The notes under the pieces: model-generated
Databases searched by the model: none
Told to the model about the DNA's origin: nothing
What the model saw: the letters and a program-made list of their open reading frames with translations, nothing else
Assembly: GCF_001697225.1 (NCBI RefSeq)
Contig: NZ_CP014671.1
Coordinates: 868,001-932,000 of the forward strand
Source of the DNA: Immundisolibacter cernigliae
GTDB lineage: Bacteria > Pseudomonadota > Gammaproteobacteria > Immundisolibacterales > Immundisolibacteraceae
DNA: 64,000 nt
Direction: 5' to 3'
Program-made: the position numbers and the translations under genes
In this document: one piece after another, positions 2,655 through 36,075 of the stretch
How the letters are laid out: every line of letters begins with the position of its first letter
How positions within the stretch are numbered: position 1 is the stretch's first letter

Positions 2655-3395
2655 TCAACACCCGACGCCGCGCGGCTGGTTCTTCATGTGCAGTTTCCAC
2701 GCGTAGCCGGCCAGGTTGTCGCCGAACGAAATCGCCTTGCGCGGCAGGCGCAGCAGGTCCTGGCCCGGATACGCCGCCGCCCGATCGCAGGTGGTGGCGC
2801 TGACGTAGCCCGCCTCGGCGACCATGTTCACCACCGTCTCGTCGTAGCTGCCGTAGGGATAGCAGAAGTGGCGTACCGGCGCGCCCAGCACCGCTTCGAG
2901 CCGGTGCCTGCTGTCACTCACTTCCTGTCTGGCCACATCCGGGTCGATCTGCGCCAGGCGTTGATGGGACAGGCCGTGGCTGCCAAAGTCGACGCCCGCC
3001 CGGTGCAGCTCGCGCACCCGCGAGGCACTCATCAGCGGCGGCGTGGCCCGGCCGTCGGCGGCAAACCAGGCCGCCGGCTGGCCGAGCCGATCCGCCAGCA
3101 GATAGACCATGGCCGGAAAGCCATACTGCGCCAGCACCGGCCAGGCGTACTCGCAGAAGTTCTCGTAACCGTCGTCGAAGGTGAGCACCACCGCCCGCGG
3201 CGGCAGCGGGCGCTCGCCGCGCAGACCGGCGATGGCCTCGTCCAGCCGCAGCACCGCGTAGCGCAGGCGATGCAGCCAGGCCATCTGCGCGGCGAAGTTG
3301 CGGTGATCGCAGTAGGTCGAGCGGTGTTCGCGCATGGGCGCGAACTGGCCCACCTGGTGATACATGAGGATGGATACCCGGCCCGTGCCCGTCAT
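2655..3395 (-). CDS. Polysaccharide deacetylase family protein (NodB/CE4)
   Basis: A 246-residue protein starting at ATG 3393-3395; the frame is open further upstream, but that extension lies inside the neighbouring gene. CE4 motifs are visible: VVLTFDDGYENF (motif 1, Asp pair), DFGSHGLSHQ (motif 2, metal-binding His pair), and HFCYPYGSYD (motif 3). No signal peptide is obvious. The family removes N- or O-acetyl groups from cell-wall or capsular sugars using a divalent metal. The gene is the last of a minus-strand chain of glycan genes, with its start only a base or so from the stop of the glycosyltransferase before it, so translational coupling is likely. The exact substrate is unknown. Confidence 0.85.
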   Translation of the reverse strand: MTGTGRVSILMYHQVGQFAPMREHRSTYCDHRNFAAQMAWLHRLRYAVLRLDEAIAGLRGERPLPPRAVVLTFDDGYENFCEYAWPVLAQYGFPAMVYLLADRLGQPAAWFAADGRATPPLMSASRVRELHRAGVDFGSHGLSHQRLAQIDPDVARQEVSDSRHRLEAVLGAPVRHFCYPYGSYDETVVNMVAEAGYVSATTCDRAAAYPGQDLLRLPRKAISFGDNLAGYAWKLHMKNQPRGVGC

Positions 3396-13898: not shown

Positions 13899-13978
13899 GT
13901 AGGAGCCCGGCTTCGCCGGGCGATCAACGCTGCATCATCCGCCGGGCGATCATCGCGCAGCGAAGCTGCGCTCCTTGT
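13899..13978. repeat. Family A REP-like repeat (extended)
   Basis: GTAGGAGCCCGGCTTCGCCG, a CAACGCTGCATCATCCGCCG spacer unit and the GCGCAGCGAAGCTGCGCTCC hairpin. It continues directly into a family H segment that also follows family A at 38985. The gene-free stretch 13873-14214 holds only repeats and the IS110 left end. Confidence 0.75.
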
Positions 13979-14040
13979 ATGTTTCGCGTGCCGTTATGGC
14001 AAGTAAAACGCTTCACCGGGGAGGCCGTTCGCTCCTGGAG
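13976..14040. repeat. Family H segment, copy 1
   Basis: The segment TGTATGTTTCGCGTGCCGTT to CACCGGGGAGGCCGTTCGCT is nearly identical to 39031-39094. A diverged inverted copy is at about 48812-48855 (CTTCCCCGGTGAAGCGCTTG). Family A precedes it in the first two places. The IS110 element begins at or just after its right end. Confidence 0.65.
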
Positions 14041-14047
14041 GCGGGAG

Positions 14048-14178
14048 GGTTCCCGACCTCGTGTGTAGAGCGGCTCCCCGCCTCATTGCCCAGCACGTGG
14101 AGTATCCGGAAGCCGATCGTACGAGGCGGACTTCGCATACAAGGCCACACCGGGCAACAAGTGCGAGGTCGGGGAACC
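14048..14178 (+). ncRNA. Candidate IS110 bridge RNA region
   Basis: The noncoding left end of the IS110 element contains two long complementary arms: GGTTCCCGACCTCG at 14048-14061 and CGAGGTCGGGGAACC at 14164-14178, pairing over 14 bp with one bulged G. They enclose about 100 nt. A further hairpin GGTGA..TCACC (14179-14195) follows just before the ribosome-binding site. Bridge RNAs of the IS110 group are encoded in this position and fold into a stem with internal target- and donor-binding loops. The loop sequences have not been matched to target and donor here. Confidence 0.45.
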
Positions 14179-14214
14179 GGTGAGCATTATTCACCAGCAC
14201 GGAGGATCAGCAAG

Positions 14215-15213
14215 GTGTCGACAGTACACGCGGGAATCGATGTATCGGCCAAGAGCGTCGAGTTGGCGTTGCGCCAGAACGGCCGACGGATCAGCCGTGA
14301 GACGTTCCCACAGACGCCCGAAGGGCATCGGCAGCTGCAGCGGCGTCTGCGTGCCGCACAGCCGCAGTGCGTGGTACTCGAGGCCACGGGCGTTTACTAC
14401 CTGGACCTGGCCGTGACGCTGGCGCACGCGCAGCTGCCGGTCAGTGTGATCAACCCACGCAGCTTCCATCACTTCGCCAAGCTCAAGCTCCAGGGCAGCA
14501 AGACCGACGGCATCGATGCCGATCTGCTGGCCGAGTACGGCGAACGCCTGTCGCCGCCGGTGTGGACGCCACCCGATCCGGCGCGCCTGGCGCTGCGCGA
14601 CCTGGGCCGGCAGATCAATCGCCTGACTGCGATGCGCACGCAGGCCAAGAATCGTCTGCATGCCCTGCGCGCCCGCCAAGGCGTCCTGGACCTGCTGATC
14701 CAGGACGAAGTCGACGCCATCGCCACCTTGGAGCGTCGCCTCGAGCGCTTGACCCAAGCGGCCTGCCAACTGCTGGAGCAGCAGCCCGAGCTGGCCCGCC
14801 AGGCCCAGCACCTGGACGCCGCCAAGGGCGTGGCCCAGGCCAGCGCCATCGCGCTGCTGGCGGAGCTGTGCGTGCTGCCGGCCAGTCTCAAGTCCGCTCA
14901 GGTCGCCCGCCATGCCGGCCTTGACGTATGCCTGCGCCAGTCCGGCAGCAGCGTCCATGGCGTCTCGCGCATCAGCAAGGCCGGCAACGCCTACCTGCGA
15001 GCAGCGCTCTACATGCCCGCCCTGAGCGCCGTGCGCTATGACCCCTACGCGCGCGCCTTCTACGAAGCGCTCCAGCGCCGCGGCAAGCGAAAAATCCAGG
15101 CGTTGTGTGCCGTCATGCGCAAGCTGCTCACCGGATTCTGGGCGTGCCTGAAAACCGCACAGCCCTTCGACCCCGCCAAGCTCTTCAGCGATGCCCACTT
15201 CGCCAAGACTTGA
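14215..15213 (+). CDS. IS110-family transposase (recombinase)
   Basis: A 332-residue protein from GTG 14215, preceded by GGAGG at 14201-14205; upstream frame without homology was excluded. The N-terminal RuvC-like DEDD domain has HAGIDVSAKS (D9), VVLEATGVYY (E56) and GSKTDGIDADLLAEYG (D98, D101). The C-terminal Transposase_20-type domain contains HAGLDVCLRQSGSSVHGVS with the candidate nucleophilic serine near 243-246, then GNAYLRAALYMPALSA. It is full length, apparently intact and could be active. The family recombines DNA using a bridge RNA encoded next to the gene. Confidence 0.92.
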   Translation: MSTVHAGIDVSAKSVELALRQNGRRISRETFPQTPEGHRQLQRRLRAAQPQCVVLEATGVYYLDLAVTLAHAQLPVSVINPRSFHHFAKLKLQGSKTDGIDADLLAEYGERLSPPVWTPPDPARLALRDLGRQINRLTAMRTQAKNRLHALRARQGVLDLLIQDEVDAIATLERRLERLTQAACQLLEQQPELARQAQHLDAAKGVAQASAIALLAELCVLPASLKSAQVARHAGLDVCLRQSGSSVHGVSRISKAGNAYLRAALYMPALSAVRYDPYARAFYEALQRRGKRKIQALCAVMRKLLTGFWACLKTAQPFDPAKLFSDAHFAKT

Positions 15214-16030: not shown

Positions 16031-16045
16031 AAAGGAAATCGAGAC

Positions 16046-16083
16046 GTAGCCTGGATGCAGCGCAGCGGAATCCGGGATTCCGC
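16046..16083. repeat. Family D repeat, left-half copy
   Basis: GTAGCCTGGATGCAGCGCAG continuing to GGAATCCGGGATT. Full family D units are about 83 bp, with this left arm and an inverted right arm ending ATACGGGCTAC. Only the left half is present here. Confidence 0.65.
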
Positions 16084-16345: not shown

Positions 16346-16350
16346 TTCGT

Positions 16351-16379
16351 GCTGATTGTAAGTTGAACTTACAATCAGC
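16351..16379. promoter_or_regulatory. Perfect 29-bp palindrome upstream of the AAA/DUF4143 gene
   Basis: Arms GCTGATTGTAAGTT (16351-16364) and AACTTACAATCAGC (16366-16379) are perfect inverted repeats around a single G. The palindrome ends 3 bp before the ATG at 16383, so it covers the position of the ribosome-binding site and of the promoter or transcript start. This suits an autoregulatory operator or an RNA hairpin that hides the start codon. No separate Shine-Dalgarno sequence is visible. Confidence 0.75.
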
Positions 16380-16382
16380 CAC

Positions 16383-17543
16383 ATGATCCCCCGCGACGCC
16401 AGCCATACGCTCAGCAGCCTCGCCGCTGGCTACCCCGTCCTGGCGGTTACCGGCCCGCGCCAGTCCGGCAAAACGACGCTGTGCCGGGCACTGTTCCCGG
16501 CCCTGCCCTACGCCTCGCTGGAAGACCCGGACACCCGCCAGTTTGCGCAGGAAGACACACGCGGCTTTCTGGCCCAGTACCCGGACGGCGCCGTGCTGGA
16601 CGAAGCGCAGCGCTGCCCGGACCTGTTCGCCTACCTGCAAAGGCGCGTGGACGAAGATCCGCGTCCCGGCCGCTTCGTGCTGACCGGCTCGCAGCAGTTC
16701 GGTCTGATGTCCGGCATCAGCCAGAGCCTGGCCGGCCGCGTGGCCCTGCTGCATCTGCTGCCCCTTGGCATTGCGGAGCTGCGCGCCGGCGGCCTGCTGC
16801 CGCCGTCCCTGGACCGGCTGCTGCTGGATGGTGGCTACCCGCCGGTGCACGACCGCCGGCTCGACCCGGCCATCTGGTACGCCAACTACGTGCAGACCTA
16901 CCTGGAGCGGGACGTACGGCAACTGATCAACGTGCGCGACCTGGCTCAGTTCCAGCGCTTCGTGCGCCTGTGCGCCGGCCGCACCGGGCAACTGCTGAAC
17001 CTGTCGGCGCTGGGCGACGAGGCCGGCGTCAGCCACAACACCGCCGGGCAGTGGCTGTCCGTGCTGGAGGCCAGCTACCTCATCCACCGCCTGCCGCCGC
17101 ATCACCGCAACTTCAACAAGCGGCTGGTCAAAACCCCGAAGCTCTATTTTCTGGACACCGGCCTGGCTGCGCGCCTGCTGGGCATCGAAACCGAGTCACA
17201 ACTGGCCACCCACCCCCTGCGCGGCGCCCTGTTCGAAACCTGGGTGGTGAGCGAACACCTCAAGGCGCGCTTCAACCGTGGCCTGCCGGCCAATCTGAGC
17301 TTCTGGCGCGACCGTGCCGGGCACGAGGTGGACCTGATCATCGAACGCGACAACCGCCTGTGGCCAGTAGAAGCCAAAGCAGGATCAACCATCACAGCGG
17401 ATGCCAGCCGCAGCCTGCTGCGCTGGCTGGATGTGGCCGCAGACGCCGCCGCCGAACCGACGCTGGTGTACGCGGGCGAGCATGCGCAAACCCGAAACGG
17501 CGTGAAATGGATTCCGTGGCGGGAATGGCAACCACACGTCTGA
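16383..17543 (+). CDS. AAA-family ATPase with DUF4143 domain
   Basis: A 386-residue protein. An N-terminal AAA_14 domain has Walker A GPRQSGKT (24-31) and Walker B VLDEAQR (Asp73-Glu74), plus the FVLTGSQQF sensor-like strand. The C-terminal DUF4143 part includes YLERDVRQL and a PD-(D/E)xK-like segment, FWRDRAGHEVDLIIERDNRLWPVEAKAG read in pieces, with Asp, Glu and Lys at the nuclease spacing. These proteins are widespread in genomic islands and of uncertain function, possibly defence or toxin-like. The perfect palindrome just upstream suggests tight self-regulation. Intact, alone in its transcription unit. Confidence 0.85.
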   Translation: MIPRDASHTLSSLAAGYPVLAVTGPRQSGKTTLCRALFPALPYASLEDPDTRQFAQEDTRGFLAQYPDGAVLDEAQRCPDLFAYLQRRVDEDPRPGRFVLTGSQQFGLMSGISQSLAGRVALLHLLPLGIAELRAGGLLPPSLDRLLLDGGYPPVHDRRLDPAIWYANYVQTYLERDVRQLINVRDLAQFQRFVRLCAGRTGQLLNLSALGDEAGVSHNTAGQWLSVLEASYLIHRLPPHHRNFNKRLVKTPKLYFLDTGLAARLLGIETESQLATHPLRGALFETWVVSEHLKARFNRGLPANLSFWRDRAGHEVDLIIERDNRLWPVEAKAGSTITADASRSLLRWLDVAADAAAEPTLVYAGEHAQTRNGVKWIPWREWQPHV

Positions 17544-17811: not shown

Positions 17812-18066
17812 ATGAAAAGCGTACCCATTTACGAAGCCAAGAATCGCCTTTCGGAACTGGTGGCCGCCGTCGAGCAGGGCGAAACCGTGGCCATCACCCG
17901 TCGCGGCCGGCCGGTCGCCCGGCTGGTTGCCGACACCGGCGATGCCCCGGAGCACCTGCCACAGCGCCAACGTGCTGCCGCGGCACTCGCAGAATTGCGC
18001 CGTCTGCGCCACGGCGTGCGCCTGGAGGGCGACCCCAAGGCCATCGCCCGGGAAGGGCTCGACTGA
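17812..18066 (+). CDS. Type II antitoxin, Phd/YefM family
   Basis: An 84-residue protein with the Phd/YefM DNA-binding fold at its N terminus (VPIYEAKNRLSELVAAVEQG, TVAITRRGRPVARLV) and a short basic-acidic C-terminal tail that should wrap the toxin. The stop overlaps the toxin ATG (TGATG), a standard antitoxin-toxin coupling. Expression probably starts within or just beside the family B element, which ends only a few bases upstream. It would neutralise the PIN ribonuclease and repress the operon. Confidence 0.85.
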   Translation: MKSVPIYEAKNRLSELVAAVEQGETVAITRRGRPVARLVADTGDAPEHLPQRQRAAAALAELRRLRHGVRLEGDPKAIAREGLD

Positions 18067-18470
18067 TGCCCTTCGTGCTCGACAGCTCGGTGGTGTGTGG
18101 CTGGATTTTCGAAAACCAGGCCAATGCCTACACCGAGTCGGTCGCCCAGCGCCTGCTGGACGACCGCGCCCATGCCCCCGGCCTGTGGCCGATGGAACTG
18201 GCCAACGTACTGCGCACCGGGTGCAAGCGCGGCATCCTGATCGCCCAGCAGGCGCAGGCCGTGCTCGAAAACCTGGCCGCCCTGCCCATCGATACAGACA
18301 CCCGGCCGGCCAGCGCAGCCACGCTGCTGTCCCTTGCCCTGCGCCATGACCTGAGCGCCTGCGACGCCGCCTATCTCGAGCTGGCGCTGCGCCTGCAACA
18401 GCCCATCGCCACCCAGGATGCCGCCCTCGCCGAGGCCGCCCGTGCCGCCGGCGTCGGCGTGCTGGCCTGA
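18066..18470 (+). CDS. Type II toxin, VapC-like PIN-domain ribonuclease
   Basis: A 134-residue PIN-domain protein with the acidic metal-binding set D6 (MPFVLDSSVV), E44 (WPMELANVLR), D100 (LSACDAAYLELA) and D118 (ATQDAAL). The fold cleaves RNA, usually tRNA or rRNA, when the antitoxin is degraded. It overlaps the antitoxin gene by one base. It appears intact. The following 212 nt (18471-18682) hold no gene or repeat I can recognise. Confidence 0.87.
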   Translation: MPFVLDSSVVCGWIFENQANAYTESVAQRLLDDRAHAPGLWPMELANVLRTGCKRGILIAQQAQAVLENLAALPIDTDTRPASAATLLSLALRHDLSACDAAYLELALRLQQPIATQDAALAEAARAAGVGVLA

Positions 18471-18682
18471 GCGCGCCCCTGCGCCGTACGCGAACTGATC
18501 CAAAACGCCGACGAATGGCCCGCCATGCGGCTCACCCGCAACCGCCTCGCGCGGCCGCGATTTCGGCGATACCCTGTGCGCAGCGCAGCACGCCATCCAT
18601 GCTTACGCGCAAACGCAGTTCGCCGTGTGAGCAGCCAGCCACCCAGCAATAACGGCATGACTGCCATGGGAGCATCGAAAAC

Positions 18683-18949
18683 ATGCCCGTGATATCAATG
18701 TTCTACGGGATTATTATCCGAATGTACTTTCTGGATGATCAACATCACAGTGCGCCGCACATTCACGCGCGGTATGCAGAGTTTGAAGCATCGGTGCGGA
18801 TTGCGGATGGAGAGGTGTTGGCAGGCGAATTGCCGCGCAAACAGCTGCGCCTCGTACAGGCCTGGATAGAGCTTCGTCGAGACGAACTTCTGGCAGATTG
18901 GGAACTGGCCGCGGCCGGACAGATGCCCTACAAAATCGATCCATTGTGA
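18683..18949 (+). CDS. DUF4160 domain protein
   Basis: An 88-residue protein with the DUF4160 signature: MFYGIIIRMYFLDDQHHSAP, then HIHARYAEFEASV and LPRKQLRLVQAWIELRRDEL. The His-rich HH-x3-PHIHA stretch is the family hallmark. DUF4160 genes are regularly followed by DUF2442 genes, as here 7 nt downstream, and the pair is regarded as a possible toxin-antitoxin module without proven activity. Which partner would be toxic is not known. Confidence 0.8.
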   Translation: MPVISMFYGIIIRMYFLDDQHHSAPHIHARYAEFEASVRIADGEVLAGELPRKQLRLVQAWIELRRDELLADWELAAAGQMPYKIDPL

Positions 18950-18956
18950 GGTTTCC

Positions 18957-19205
18957 ATGTACTGGGATGTAACAAATGTGCGCCCGCTGGATGACTATCA
19001 GATATACGTCGAACTGCAAGACGGCCGACAAGGCGTCTTCGACCTGAAGCCGTACCTGAATCACGGTCTATTCAGCGAGCTGAAAGACAAAAACTACTTC
19101 TCGCAGGTATCCATAGCGTTCGGTGCCGTAACGTGGCCCCACGCACAAGACATCGCACCGGAAACACTGCTTGCCGGAATGAAGCTGGTCGGGCAGCCAA
19201 CGTAG
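18957..19205 (+). CDS. DUF2442 domain protein
   Basis: An 82-residue protein (MYWDVTNVRPLDDYQIYVEL, VFDLKPYLNHGLFSELKD, ITWP-like VTWPHAQDIAPETLL) matching the DUF2442 family. It is the partner of the DUF4160 gene just upstream and probably cotranscribed. Its stop falls within three bases of the hairpin repeat at 19202, which may serve as terminator. Confidence 0.8.
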   Translation: MYWDVTNVRPLDDYQIYVELQDGRQGVFDLKPYLNHGLFSELKDKNYFSQVSIAFGAVTWPHAQDIAPETLLAGMKLVGQPT

Positions 19206-19320
19206 GGTGGGCAAAGCGCGGCGTGCCCACGCGGACACGGCGCCCGGCGCCGCATGCGGCTCATCGAAAGCTCGTCAGAACCGCGTGGGCACGGCCTTAC
19301 GGCCTTTGCCCACCCTATAC
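19202..19320. repeat. Long inverted-repeat element (GTAGGGTGGGCAAAG type)
   Basis: The ends GTAGGGTGGGCAAAGC and GGCCTTTGCCCACCCTA are complementary. Inside, GTGCCCACGCGG pairs with CCGCGTGGGCAC, so the 119 bases can form one long interrupted hairpin. Similar elements are common between genes in proteobacteria. It overlaps the end of the DUF2442 gene. A family A half unit (19336-19377) and a family I fragment follow and fill 19206-19517. Confidence 0.7.
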
Positions 19321-19499
19321 GGGCTGCCGCATCCGACCGGCGATCATCGCGCAGCGAAGCTGCGCTCCTACAAATCCATGCGCGCCGCCCCGGTCGCGGG
19401 CATGGCCCGCTCCTACCCGCAACAGCACAGCGTCAGACCAGAATTTGGGCGTTCTTGCCGACACACACACACCCCGCCTTATCCTGACCACCCAGATAG

Positions 19500-19766
<267 letters not shown>

Positions 19767-19768
19767 AG

Positions 19769-19918
19769 AAGCGCTGAATAAATCCATCCTGGATTTCTCA
19801 GCGCCCGCCATCGGAAAAGCGTGGTTTTCCGATGGCTCACAAGATCAGCCGCTTACAGCCGCTGATCTTGGCAGCGCGTCCCTGCGCTGCGGGAAACGCT
19901 GAATACTTCAGCGGTTCC
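19769..19918. repeat. Family B MITE-like element inside a toxin-antitoxin operon
   Basis: The best-preserved family B copy. The left end is GAAGCGCTGAATAAATCC and the right end CGCTGAATACTTCAGCGGTTCC; the right end reversed (GGAACCGCTGAAGTATTC) matches the left, giving imperfect terminal inverted repeats. TTAG occurs on both sides (19763-19766 and 19918-19921) and could be a target duplication. Internal hairpins match those of the other copies. No coding capacity. Confidence 0.7.
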
Positions 19919-19928
19919 TTAGTAGGCC

Positions 19929-20351
19929 GTGCAATACCTGGACACCAGCCTCCTGCTTGCAGCACTCACGCACGAAGCGCGCACCGCATCACTTCAAACC
20001 TGGCTGGCCGCGCAGGATCCTGAAAACCTTGCCGTCAGTGATTGGGTCGTCACCGAGTTCTCCGGCGCCCTGTCGATAAAAGTACGCACCGGCCAGCTGA
20101 CGCCGTACCACCGCGCCCAGGCCCTGGCCGTATTTTCGGCGCTGGTCGACAACTCGCTGCTGGTTTGGCCCGTGTCGCGCCTGGACTTTCGCACCGCCGC
20201 GCGGTTTGCAGATCAGCACGCCACGGGCCTGCGCAGCGGCGACGCGTTGCACCTGGCCGTCGCCGCCAATCACGGCGGGTGCGTCTGCACGCTGGACCGT
20301 GCCCTGTGCCAGGCGGCCATCGCGCTTGGCGTCAGCACCGAATCGTTGTAA
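19929..20351 (+). CDS. Type II toxin, VapC-like PIN-domain ribonuclease
   Basis: A 140-residue PIN protein from GTG 19929 with D5 (QYLDTSLLL), E43 (VVTEFSGAL), D105 (RSGDALHLA) and D123 (TLDRAL) as metal ligands. It belongs with the antitoxin at 19518, but a family B element lies between them. With an intact catalytic set it should still be toxic if translated, so either the element allows read-through or a promoter inside it drives the gene. A strong hairpin terminator follows the stop. Confidence 0.85.
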   Translation: MQYLDTSLLLAALTHEARTASLQTWLAAQDPENLAVSDWVVTEFSGALSIKVRTGQLTPYHRAQALAVFSALVDNSLLVWPVSRLDFRTAARFADQHATGLRSGDALHLAVAANHGGCVCTLDRALCQAAIALGVSTESL

Positions 20352-20387
20352 CGCTGGCCCTGCCGTGTGCCGACCACGCCGAGGCGA

Positions 20388-20421
20388 GCTGAAAAATGCC
20401 ACGGAAGGCATTTTTTTCAGC
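20388..20421. terminator. Bidirectional intrinsic terminator
   Basis: Stem GCTGAAAAATGCC (20388-20400) with GGCATTTTTTTCAGC (20407-20421) and a six-base loop. A-rich and T-rich arms provide a U-tract in both directions, suiting the convergent vapC and fic genes. Confidence 0.75.
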
Positions 20422-20424
20422 CTT

Positions 20425-20456
20425 TCCAAAGGGGAATCGAACCCGCGTCCCGCAGT
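20425..20456 (-). other. tRNA/tmRNA T-arm-like fragment
   Basis: On the minus strand this reads CTGCGGGACGCGGGTTCGAT followed by TCCCC. This looks like the T-stem and loop at the 3' end of tmRNA or a tRNA. No acceptor stem, CCA or upstream tRNA body is visible. It lies immediately 3' of the fic stop and could be a scar of integration at such a gene, or chance. Confidence 0.3.
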
Positions 20457-20459
20457 CCC

Positions 20460-21509
20460 TCAGCGCAGGCCGTACCAGACTCCACGGCCACTGCCGTGCT
20501 GATCAAGCGTGCCGCGCTCGACCAATGCCCGGAAGTGCTGCTTCAGCGTGTTGCGGCTGGCGCCGGTCAGCTTGATGGCCTCGCCGATGGTGACGCGCCC
20601 GTGCTCGCGGGCGAACTCGACGATCCGTAACTGCAGTTCCGGCAGGGCCGCCAGCACGATCCTCTCGCGCTCGACCTTCTTCTCCAGGCGCCGAACCTGC
20701 TCGGCCAGGGAGCGCAGGAAGAACACCAGCCACGGTTGCCAGTTCGGTGCCTCGGTGCGGATCGTGCCCTGCGTCTGCCGCAAAGCCAGGTAGTACGCTT
20801 CCTTGCTCTGCTCGATCACGCTCTCCAGCGAACTGTACGGCACGTAGGCGTACCCAGCCTGCAACAGCAGGAGCGTCGTCAGCACCCGGGAGAGCCGTCC
20901 GTTGCCATCCTGAAAAGGATGGATCTCCAGAAACACGACAACGCACAAGGCGATGATCAGCAACGGATGCAGCCGCGCTGTCTCCCGCTCCTGGTTCACC
21001 CATGCGACCAGCTCCGTCATCAGGCGGGGCGTATCGAAGGGCGTCGCAGTCTGAAACACGATGCCAATCTGTGCGCCGGTCTCGTCGAAGGCGGCAACGC
21101 TGTTCGAGTTGGTCTTGTAGTTGCCGCGATGCCAGGTGTCCTTCTCGCTGTAGCGCAGCAGGATCTGGTGCAACTGCTTGATGTGGTTCTCGGTGAACGG
21201 GATGTCCTGCCACGACGAGAACACCAGGTCCATCAGCTCGGCGTAGCCGGCCACCTCCTGCTCGTCGCGAGTGGCGAAGGACTTGATCTCCAGGTTCGAC
21301 AGCAGCTGCTCCACCTCGCGGTCGGACAGCTTGCTGCCCTCGATGCGGGTGGAGGAGCCGATGCTCTCGATGGTGGCCACGCGGCGCAGGGCCGACAGTC
21401 GGTCAGGCGCGAGCGTGCCCAAGGCGCGCCAGGCGCCCTTGAACTCGTCGATCCTGGCGACGAGGCGCAGGATCTCCGGGGTGATCTGGAGGGTGTCGGT
21501 TCGCAGCAT
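20460..21509 (-). CDS. Fic family AMPylase-type protein with C-terminal winged helix
   Basis: A 349-residue protein with the catalytic Fic motif HPFQDGNGRLSR at 197-208, complete with His and the GNGR anion hole. An N-terminal inhibitory helix motif S53-x3-E57-G58 (STRIEG) marks the class II self-inhibited type. The C-terminal part (VTIGEAIKLTGASRNTLKQH) is a helix-turn-helix that probably binds its own promoter. Upstream direct repeats of ACACCCATTT support autoregulation. Such proteins transfer AMP (or other nucleotides) to target proteins. The target is unknown, and no separate antitoxin is encoded. Confidence 0.88.
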   Translation of the reverse strand: MLRTDTLQITPEILRLVARIDEFKGAWRALGTLAPDRLSALRRVATIESIGSSTRIEGSKLSDREVEQLLSNLEIKSFATRDEQEVAGYAELMDLVFSSWQDIPFTENHIKQLHQILLRYSEKDTWHRGNYKTNSNSVAAFDETGAQIGIVFQTATPFDTPRLMTELVAWVNQERETARLHPLLIIALCVVVFLEIHPFQDGNGRLSRVLTTLLLLQAGYAYVPYSSLESVIEQSKEAYYLALRQTQGTIRTEAPNWQPWLVFFLRSLAEQVRRLEKKVERERIVLAALPELQLRIVEFAREHGRVTIGEAIKLTGASRNTLKQHFRALVERGTLDQHGSGRGVWYGLR

Positions 21510-28065: not shown

Positions 28066-28146
28066 GTAGCCTGGATGCAGCGCAGCGGAATCCGGGTGAC
28101 GGCGCAACCGGTTTCTCTGTATTGCGCTGCGCTGCATACGGGCTAC
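28066..28146. repeat. Family D repeat, complete copy
   Basis: Left arm GTAGCCTGGATGCAGCGCAG and right arm CTGCGCTGCATACGGGCTAC are imperfect inverted repeats around CGGTTT. It lies directly downstream of the hybrid GT4 gene. The rest of 28061-28269 holds nothing else recognisable. Confidence 0.7.
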
Positions 28147-33741: not shown

Positions 33742-33830
33742 GTAGCCTGGATGCAGCGCAGCGGAATCCGGGGTGATGGGGTAACCGGTTTTCCCGTGGT
33801 GTGCTGCGCTGGATGCGGGCTGCCGCGCTA
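33742..33830. repeat. Family D repeat, diverged copy
   Basis: GTAGCCTGGATGCAGCGCAG is intact on the left, while the right arm (GTGCTGCGCTGGATGCGGGC) has several changes. Confidence 0.6.
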
Positions 33831-33867: not shown

Positions 33868-33950
33868 GTAGCCTGGATGGAGCGCAGCGGAATCCGGGAT
33901 GGTTGGGCAATGAACGTTCCCCGTATTCCGCTGCGCTGCATACGGGCTAC
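33868..33950. repeat. Family D repeat, complete copy identical to 35993-36075
   Basis: The 83 bases from GTAGCCTGGATGGAGCGCAG to GCTGCATACGGGCTAC, including the loop GATGGTTGGGCAATGAACG, recur at 35993-36075 without a difference I can see. This implies recent copying or gene conversion. Confidence 0.75.
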
Positions 33951-35992: not shown

Positions 35993-36075
35993 GTAGCCTG
36001 GATGGAGCGCAGCGGAATCCGGGATGGTTGGGCAATGAACGTTCCCCGTATTCCGCTGCGCTGCATACGGGCTAC
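35993..36075. repeat. Family D repeat, complete copy
   Basis: Same 83 bases as 33868-33950. A half family A unit (36126-36152) and a partial family B element follow, so that 35956-36246 holds only repeats. Confidence 0.75.

Follow-up and report, generated by a model that had tools for sequence, protein, structure and literature searches.

Who or what reads a perfect palindrome that stops three nucleotides short of the start codon of an ATPase gene is the question raised by a locus of Immundisolibacter cernigliae (contig NZ_CP014671.1, positions 868,001 to 932,000 of the forward strand; this whole stretch of 64,000 nucleotides is called the window below). The palindrome, at 16351-16379 of the window, consists of GCTGATTGTAAGTT-g-AACTTACAATCAGC, with 14 of 14 arm pairs exact around a one-nucleotide centre at 16365, and is separated by a 3-nt spacer from the ATG at 16383, just as a preliminary description made from the sequence alone had claimed (exact 14-bp arms ending 3 bases from the ATG; the end noted there, 16382, includes the spacer). 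The ATG is a sound start codon, since M1 aligns across 34 homologues of the encoded protein and R4 is invariant in them. The same description saw no room for a normal ribosome-binding site outside the palindrome, and indeed no Shine-Dalgarno motif is found from the palindrome to the ATG of this AAA_14/DUF4143 gene. The palindrome is AT-rich (38% GC) inside a window of 68% GC, and a second copy is absent from the 3.24-Mb genome, whether searched with a 14-base core (up to 2 mismatches) or with an 18-base core (up to 3 mismatches). That it is a chance sequence, a reading for which nothing but its small size speaks, has a practically negligible probability: at the composition of the window a palindrome with 14-nt arms is expected 0.001 times per 64 kb with a 1-nt spacing and 0.007 times with spacings of 0-5, and the recurrence of such sites throughout the family, as revealed by the comparison of homologues that follows, refutes a chance origin.

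This comparison drew on 150 distinct genes from four phyla, and 149 homologues were scored for the best palindrome in the 80 nt upstream of the start. A score of at least 9 was reached by 51% of them, as against 3.0% of 542 other ORFs at the loci examined and 1.1% of dinucleotide shuffles (p ~1e-44). Aligned at the centre and read outward, the palindromes share a frame of 17 positions per side, n-AA[CT]T[TG]n[AC]AA[TA]TTG[CT]A[TA]A. This first set was selected by symmetry; a rescan with a PWM of the conserved positions only matched 68% of the 149 homologues versus 2.2% of control ORFs. At positions 3, 5, 6, 7, 14 and 16, which the PWM does not use, left and right arms carry matching letters in 62-80% of genes, compared with 30-44% when arms are shuffled between genes (z 7-11), and agreement is at background beyond position 17-18. 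The same symmetric positions emerged from 92 additional, held-out genes, all of them less than 80% identical to the first set, and the PWM matched 58% of the 91 scored. That similar palindromes precede other DUF4143 genes, a possibility raised in the preliminary description, holds for most close homologues. Letters that vary yet remain symmetric are, on the grounds of these alignments, the mark of a site presumably read by two copies of a protein with gene-specific specificity.

The occurrence of the operator follows relatedness, with 90% of homologues carrying it at identities of 55% or higher and about 30% at identities below 40%; about a third of all homologues, and most of those with less than 40% identity, carry no operator of the 35-bp form. 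It is also missing from the more distant DUF4143 genes checked, plasmid members of Thermus, Rhizobium and Ruminococcus, which may have another site or none. Where present, the operator is in most cases centred 17-21 nt or 32-46 nt upstream of the ATG. The search for GTAAGTT-N-AACTTAC upstream of DUF4143/AAA_14 genes that had been proposed at the outset was thus rewarded in part: palindromes on a common 35-bp frame are there, but their letters are gene-specific and the exact motif is not shared. When about 85,000 genomes were scanned for the 19-bp core TTGTAAGTTSAACTTACAA, only 2 of the 8 loci recovered, both in other lineages (Holophagae and Mariprofundus), lay at the start of DUF4143 genes, and among the 66 viral-contig stretches that contain the 15-bp core no DUF4143 gene is encoded, on which grounds that sequence was rejected as a family motif. 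Both of these DUF4143 proteins have helix starts reading S-H-N, as does the window protein, while the closest homologue (66% identity) has T-H-N and a palindrome nearly the same as that of the window.

Several sites stand apart from this general picture. Some homologue palindromes are longer, up to 51 bp perfect at locus L138, where the repeat overruns the DUF4143 start codon and its symmetry goes far beyond the need of a 35-bp site. An extra, near-identical copy of the L138 operator (TTGACAGATTGTATGTTCAACTTACAATCTGTCA) lies in Mariprofundus (L369 / L147 ~2733-2766, G612 contig C34), ~130 bp ahead of another DUF4143 paralogue and at the end of a recJ-like gene; cross-regulation or a remnant is possible. 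In Lamprobacter (L050 ~3292-3310) the TTGTAAGTTSAACTTACAA core sits between cobJ-like and lldD-like genes with no DUF4143 gene in the 8 kb examined, and other DUF4143 genes are present in that genome.

The protein encoded downstream of the palindrome comprises the following features.

16383..17543, + strand: AAA_14 + DUF4143 protein of 386 aa (PADLOC PDC-S01), from Pfam and PADLOC profiles and the predicted structure
16383..16787, + strand: AAA+ ATPase domain, residues ~1-135, with PF13173 at residues 18-133 and a fold match to 2QEN and 2FNA
17001..17093, + strand: predicted winged helix-turn-helix (helices 207-214 and 218-230, wing strand 234-237), from the AlphaFold2 model and covariation
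17031-17039, + strand: codons of S217-H218-N219, start of the recognition helix
17184..17540, + strand: PD-(D/E)XK nuclease-fold domain, from fold matches and an invariant motif
17313-17318, + strand: codons of R311-A312, in a hairpin loop of the PD-(D/E)XK-fold domain
17331, 17370 and 17376, + strand: D317, E330 and K332, invariant in the alignment of 34 homologues

Both Pfam families are matched above gathering (PF13635, DUF4143, 180.8 bits versus 28.1; PF13173, AAA_14, 90.7 versus 27), and the PADLOC PDC-S01 profiles match the window protein (best E 2e-108) and 34 of 34 aligned homologues; the DUF4143/AAA_14 family is the single-gene phage-defence candidate PDC-S01 of PADLOC. No match was returned by NCBIfam, and the hits of a sequence search in the PDB were mainly weak P-loop ones. 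PF01637 (ATPase_2) is weakly matched by 10 of the 34 homologues (best E 0.0023) and not by the window protein at E 0.05, with the fold similarity to 2QEN and 2FNA nevertheless clear. In an AlphaFold2 model built from the 34-sequence input (mean pLDDT 92), residues 1-267 resemble 2QEN (Z 15.4, rmsd 3.1, 244 aligned) and 2FNA (Z 14.4, rmsd 3.3, 244 aligned), whereas the C-terminal domain, modelled alone (pLDDT 94), resembles Can2 (Z 10.3, rmsd 3.5, 125 aligned) and McrC (Z 9.1, rmsd 3.5, 120 aligned), as well as Cdn1, Hjc and FokI. The predicted fold and the D...ExK motif (D317, E330 and K332, invariant in the 34 homologues) together place this domain in the PD-(D/E)XK group. The model further puts residues 217-219 at the start of recognition helix 218-230, and residues 311-312 in the hairpin loop that connects strands 305-309 and 315-322. 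The preliminary description, which saw an ATPase without an obvious DNA-binding domain, was therefore mistaken on this point, because in the model the DUF4143 region comprises a winged helix-turn-helix and, after it, a PD-(D/E)XK-fold domain.

Whether this protein or some other one reads the palindrome can be approached through covariation, which we computed over 79 genes and 6545 residue-position pairs after removal of overall protein similarity. Operator positions 5-7 are linked most strongly to residues 207-228, positions 14-16 to residues 301-322, and the strongest of all pairs (residue-position) are 218-7, 219-5, 312-16, 219-6, 311-15, 217-5 and 311-14. The resulting rules are nearly strict: H218 goes with C7 (54 of 58) and V/L/T218 with A7 (31 of 32); K219 with C5 (25 of 26) and P219 with T5 (24 of 24); N312 with T16 (40 of 42), R/K311 with C15 (36 of 38) and N311 with T14 (28 of 28). 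The top pairs were found again de novo in the held-out set, where V/L/T218-A7 held in 34 of 34 cases and K219-C5 in 12 of 12, and the code favours the own operator of held-out proteins (z 14.2, 0 of 5000 shuffles). Among all 386 residues, the best sole predictors of positions 5, 6, 7, 14, 15 and 16 in held-out genes are, in that order, 219, 219, 218, 311, 311 and 312; in such genes the code predicts 76% of the bases correctly, against 58% for the operator of the nearest protein and 43% for the majority base. Projected onto the window, these results give the sites listed here, together with a promoter element discussed below.

16348..16382, no strand: predicted operator of 35 bp, centre G16365, +-17, abutting the start codon; PWM score 13.4
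16358..16360, no strand: left-arm operator positions 7-5; predicted reader, from covariation, the recognition helix (residues 217-219)
16370..16372, no strand: right-arm operator positions 5-7 (T, A, C); predicted reader, the recognition helix, with H218 paired with C7
16379..16381, no strand: right-arm operator positions 14-16 (C, C, A); predicted reader, the nuclease-fold hairpin loop 311-312
16370..16375, + strand: inferred -10 box TACAAT in the right arm of the operator, ending 7 nt before the ATG

The left counterpart of positions 14-16 is 16349-16351, where symmetry is gone at 15-16; as the left arm of the window operator loses its symmetry at positions 15-17, the outer contact may be weaker there.

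The same data bear on the possibility, raised from the beginning, that the palindrome mediates control of the gene by some other DNA-binding protein of the host. Most palindromic operators of bacteria have dedicated regulators, and the ATPase had first appeared to contain no DNA-binding domain; yet the operator letters in held-out genes are predicted best by residues in two domains of the very protein encoded downstream, and the match extends to single genomes, where the own pairing of paralogue and operator outscores the swapped one in 24 of 25 pairs (the remaining pair ties, its copies being 98% identical). Such covariation within genomes, along with a code that outperforms copying from the nearest protein, disfavours both a host regulator and shared ancestry, and a site with no other copy in the genome also argues against a host factor, which we regard as highly improbable. 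The first suggestion that the ATPase binds the palindrome itself has instead become the best explanation, one that draws on the match between residues and letters.

A third possibility is that the transcript begins with an RNA hairpin formed by the palindrome, or that the palindrome is a terminator, as a perfect inverted repeat beside a start codon could fold in RNA. TANNNT ending 6-7 nt before the ATG occurs in 47% of operator-bearing genes outside the Bacteroidota versus 6% of control ORFs, and the former less often have a Shine-Dalgarno motif (10% versus 20%), both comparisons being rough because the control starts were called mechanically. A -10 box so placed indicates a transcript that would be leaderless, with its start at or beside the ATG, in agreement with the leaderless option of the preliminary description; this claim rests on the non-Bacteroidota phyla, since the Bacteroidota box TAnnTTTG gave no clear peak. 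In the window, a -35 box or a full sigma-70 match was not found. With the -10 box in this position, transcription would start only downstream of the palindrome, which makes a hairpin closing the transcript, another early proposal, unlikely, and no terminator-like site was found. The covariation, moreover, is with residues predicted to read DNA, and operator centres vary from 17 to more than 40 nt before the ATG. Taken together, these points render an RNA structure extremely improbable. G-T mismatches between arms, slightly above expectation (95 observed versus 78 expected; A-C, 77 versus 72), carry no weight either way.

We therefore consider it very likely that the palindrome serves as operator for the AAA+/DUF4143 protein encoded just downstream, which would bind it as a symmetric pair and so regulate the promoter of the gene that encodes it, probably by repression. 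Sequence evidence supports a symmetric operator that occurs once in the genome, the covariation of its bases with residues of the protein, and the position of the -10 box; physical binding, the dimer state, repression over activation and the links to ATP hydrolysis, nuclease action and phage defence are what we infer from it. As expected of an autoregulatory winged-helix operator, the palindrome is conserved at the gene's own promoter, has no other copy in the genome and has bases that match the recognition-helix residues. Two copies of the protein would sit symmetrically on the site, and in each half-site the start of the recognition helix (217-219) would read positions 5-7 from the centre while the beta-hairpin loop of the PD-(D/E)XK-fold domain (311-312) would read positions 14-16. 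Since the window operator covers the predicted -10 box and ends at the start codon, bound protein should block RNA polymerase, keeping expression low for as long as it is neither released nor titrated away. Private operator letters and matching residues would likewise allow paralogues in one genome to be regulated separately. Operator centres 17-21 nt before the ATG cover the -10 region in the genes compared and would suit repression, those at 32-46 nt could suit repression or activation, and the centres at 38-46 nt of one spacing class, which would also be fit for an activator, speak against a repressor-only reading. Against self-regulation stand the asymmetry of the window's left arm at 15-17, the rank that the window protein gives its own operator (only 9th of 131, though well above the mean), the lack of a recognised -35 box in the window and the absence of an operator of the 35-bp form from about a third of homologues.

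Autoregulation alone does not explain the invariant nuclease active site. One might propose that the protein binds the palindrome as a nuclease target or docking site, for cutting, mobility or the parking of an inactive nuclease, and not mainly as a transcriptional operator; this accords with the invariance of D317, E330 and K332 in 34 homologues and the fold matches to McrC, Can2, Hjc and FokI, with the position next to the active site of the loop predicted to read positions 14-16, with the 51-bp perfect palindrome over the start codon at L138, and with the near-identical extra operator copy beside another DUF4143 paralogue in Mariprofundus. We nevertheless deem it unlikely, for the site keeps fixed distances from the -10 box and from the start codon of the gene encoding the protein, a protein that cleaved its own site would eliminate it, and a second copy is absent from the genome. 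An extension of the autoregulatory reading, which we offer as speculative and rather doubtful, is that the operator also serves as a holding site: in a resting cell the ATPase-nuclease would occupy its promoter through both of its reading parts, silencing the gene and staying inactive as a nuclease, until an invader signal or ATP hydrolysis released it and started expression and nuclease attack together, the private code stopping interference between paralogues.

An IS110 transposase lies at 13975-15213 of the window, and two Phd/YefM-PIN toxin-antitoxin pairs, a DUF4160/DUF2442 pair and a Fic gene lie beside the DUF4143 gene at 17812-21509; a dispersed intergenic repeat, GTAGCCTGGATG(C/G)AGCGCAGCGGAATCCGGG, often in inverted pairs (28066-28146, 33744-33821, 33868-33950, 35993-36075, ~16040-16080), is reminiscent of REP elements. 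The DUF4143 protein is missing, at E <= 1e-60, from two close relatives of the same genus and family, which suggests gain of the gene by transfer, and it is not a typical phage gene, as ~50,700 phages yielded only four DUF4143 hits.

Very probably, then, to judge from the sequences compared, this DUF4143 gene controls itself, through a 35-base tag that stands before most close relatives and matches residues of the protein. PDC-S01 is the fourth most common defence system in prokaryotes, most such candidates awaiting validation (PMC12988326), and a Thermus DUF4143 member is among the genes affected by plasmid presence (PMC4406477). In the literature, with subscription papers and preprints scarcely covered and an earlier description thus possible, we found no operator, promoter, DNA recognition, regulation or mechanism for the family, which here gains a defined predicted DNA site, a residue-to-base code, a putative leaderless promoter and a candidate DNA-reading role for its PD-(D/E)XK domain. 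The code should also be useful for spotting misannotated start codons and for assigning each paralogue its site.

The best matches among solved folds to residues 1-267 are the archaeal AAA+ ATPases PABY2304 (2QEN) and SSO1545 (2FNA), which share only 16-19% identity with the window protein and leave its C-terminal nuclease-fold domain outside the match; we know of no operator for either. The mycobacterial ATPase IniR has an AAA+ domain of the SSO1545 type and acts on transcription by binding DNA (PMC5760070), as is predicted of the window protein, but has 818 aa, activates another operon (iniBAC) and binds DNA through a C-terminal SdiA-like domain, with no PD-(D/E)XK domain reported (PMC5760070). 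The Can2/Card1 and McrBC nucleases share the fold and the D...ExK motif of the C-terminal domain, and McrBC also combines AAA+ with PD-(D/E)XK; unlike in these enzymes, residues of the nuclease-fold loop of the window protein covary with the operator of its own gene. In the control of toxin-antitoxin and restriction-modification systems, a protein represses its own promoter via an overlapping palindrome. The scheme proposed for DUF4143 would work alike, differing in that one large ATPase/nuclease-fold protein would be both effector candidate and regulator, with two of its domains reading the site.
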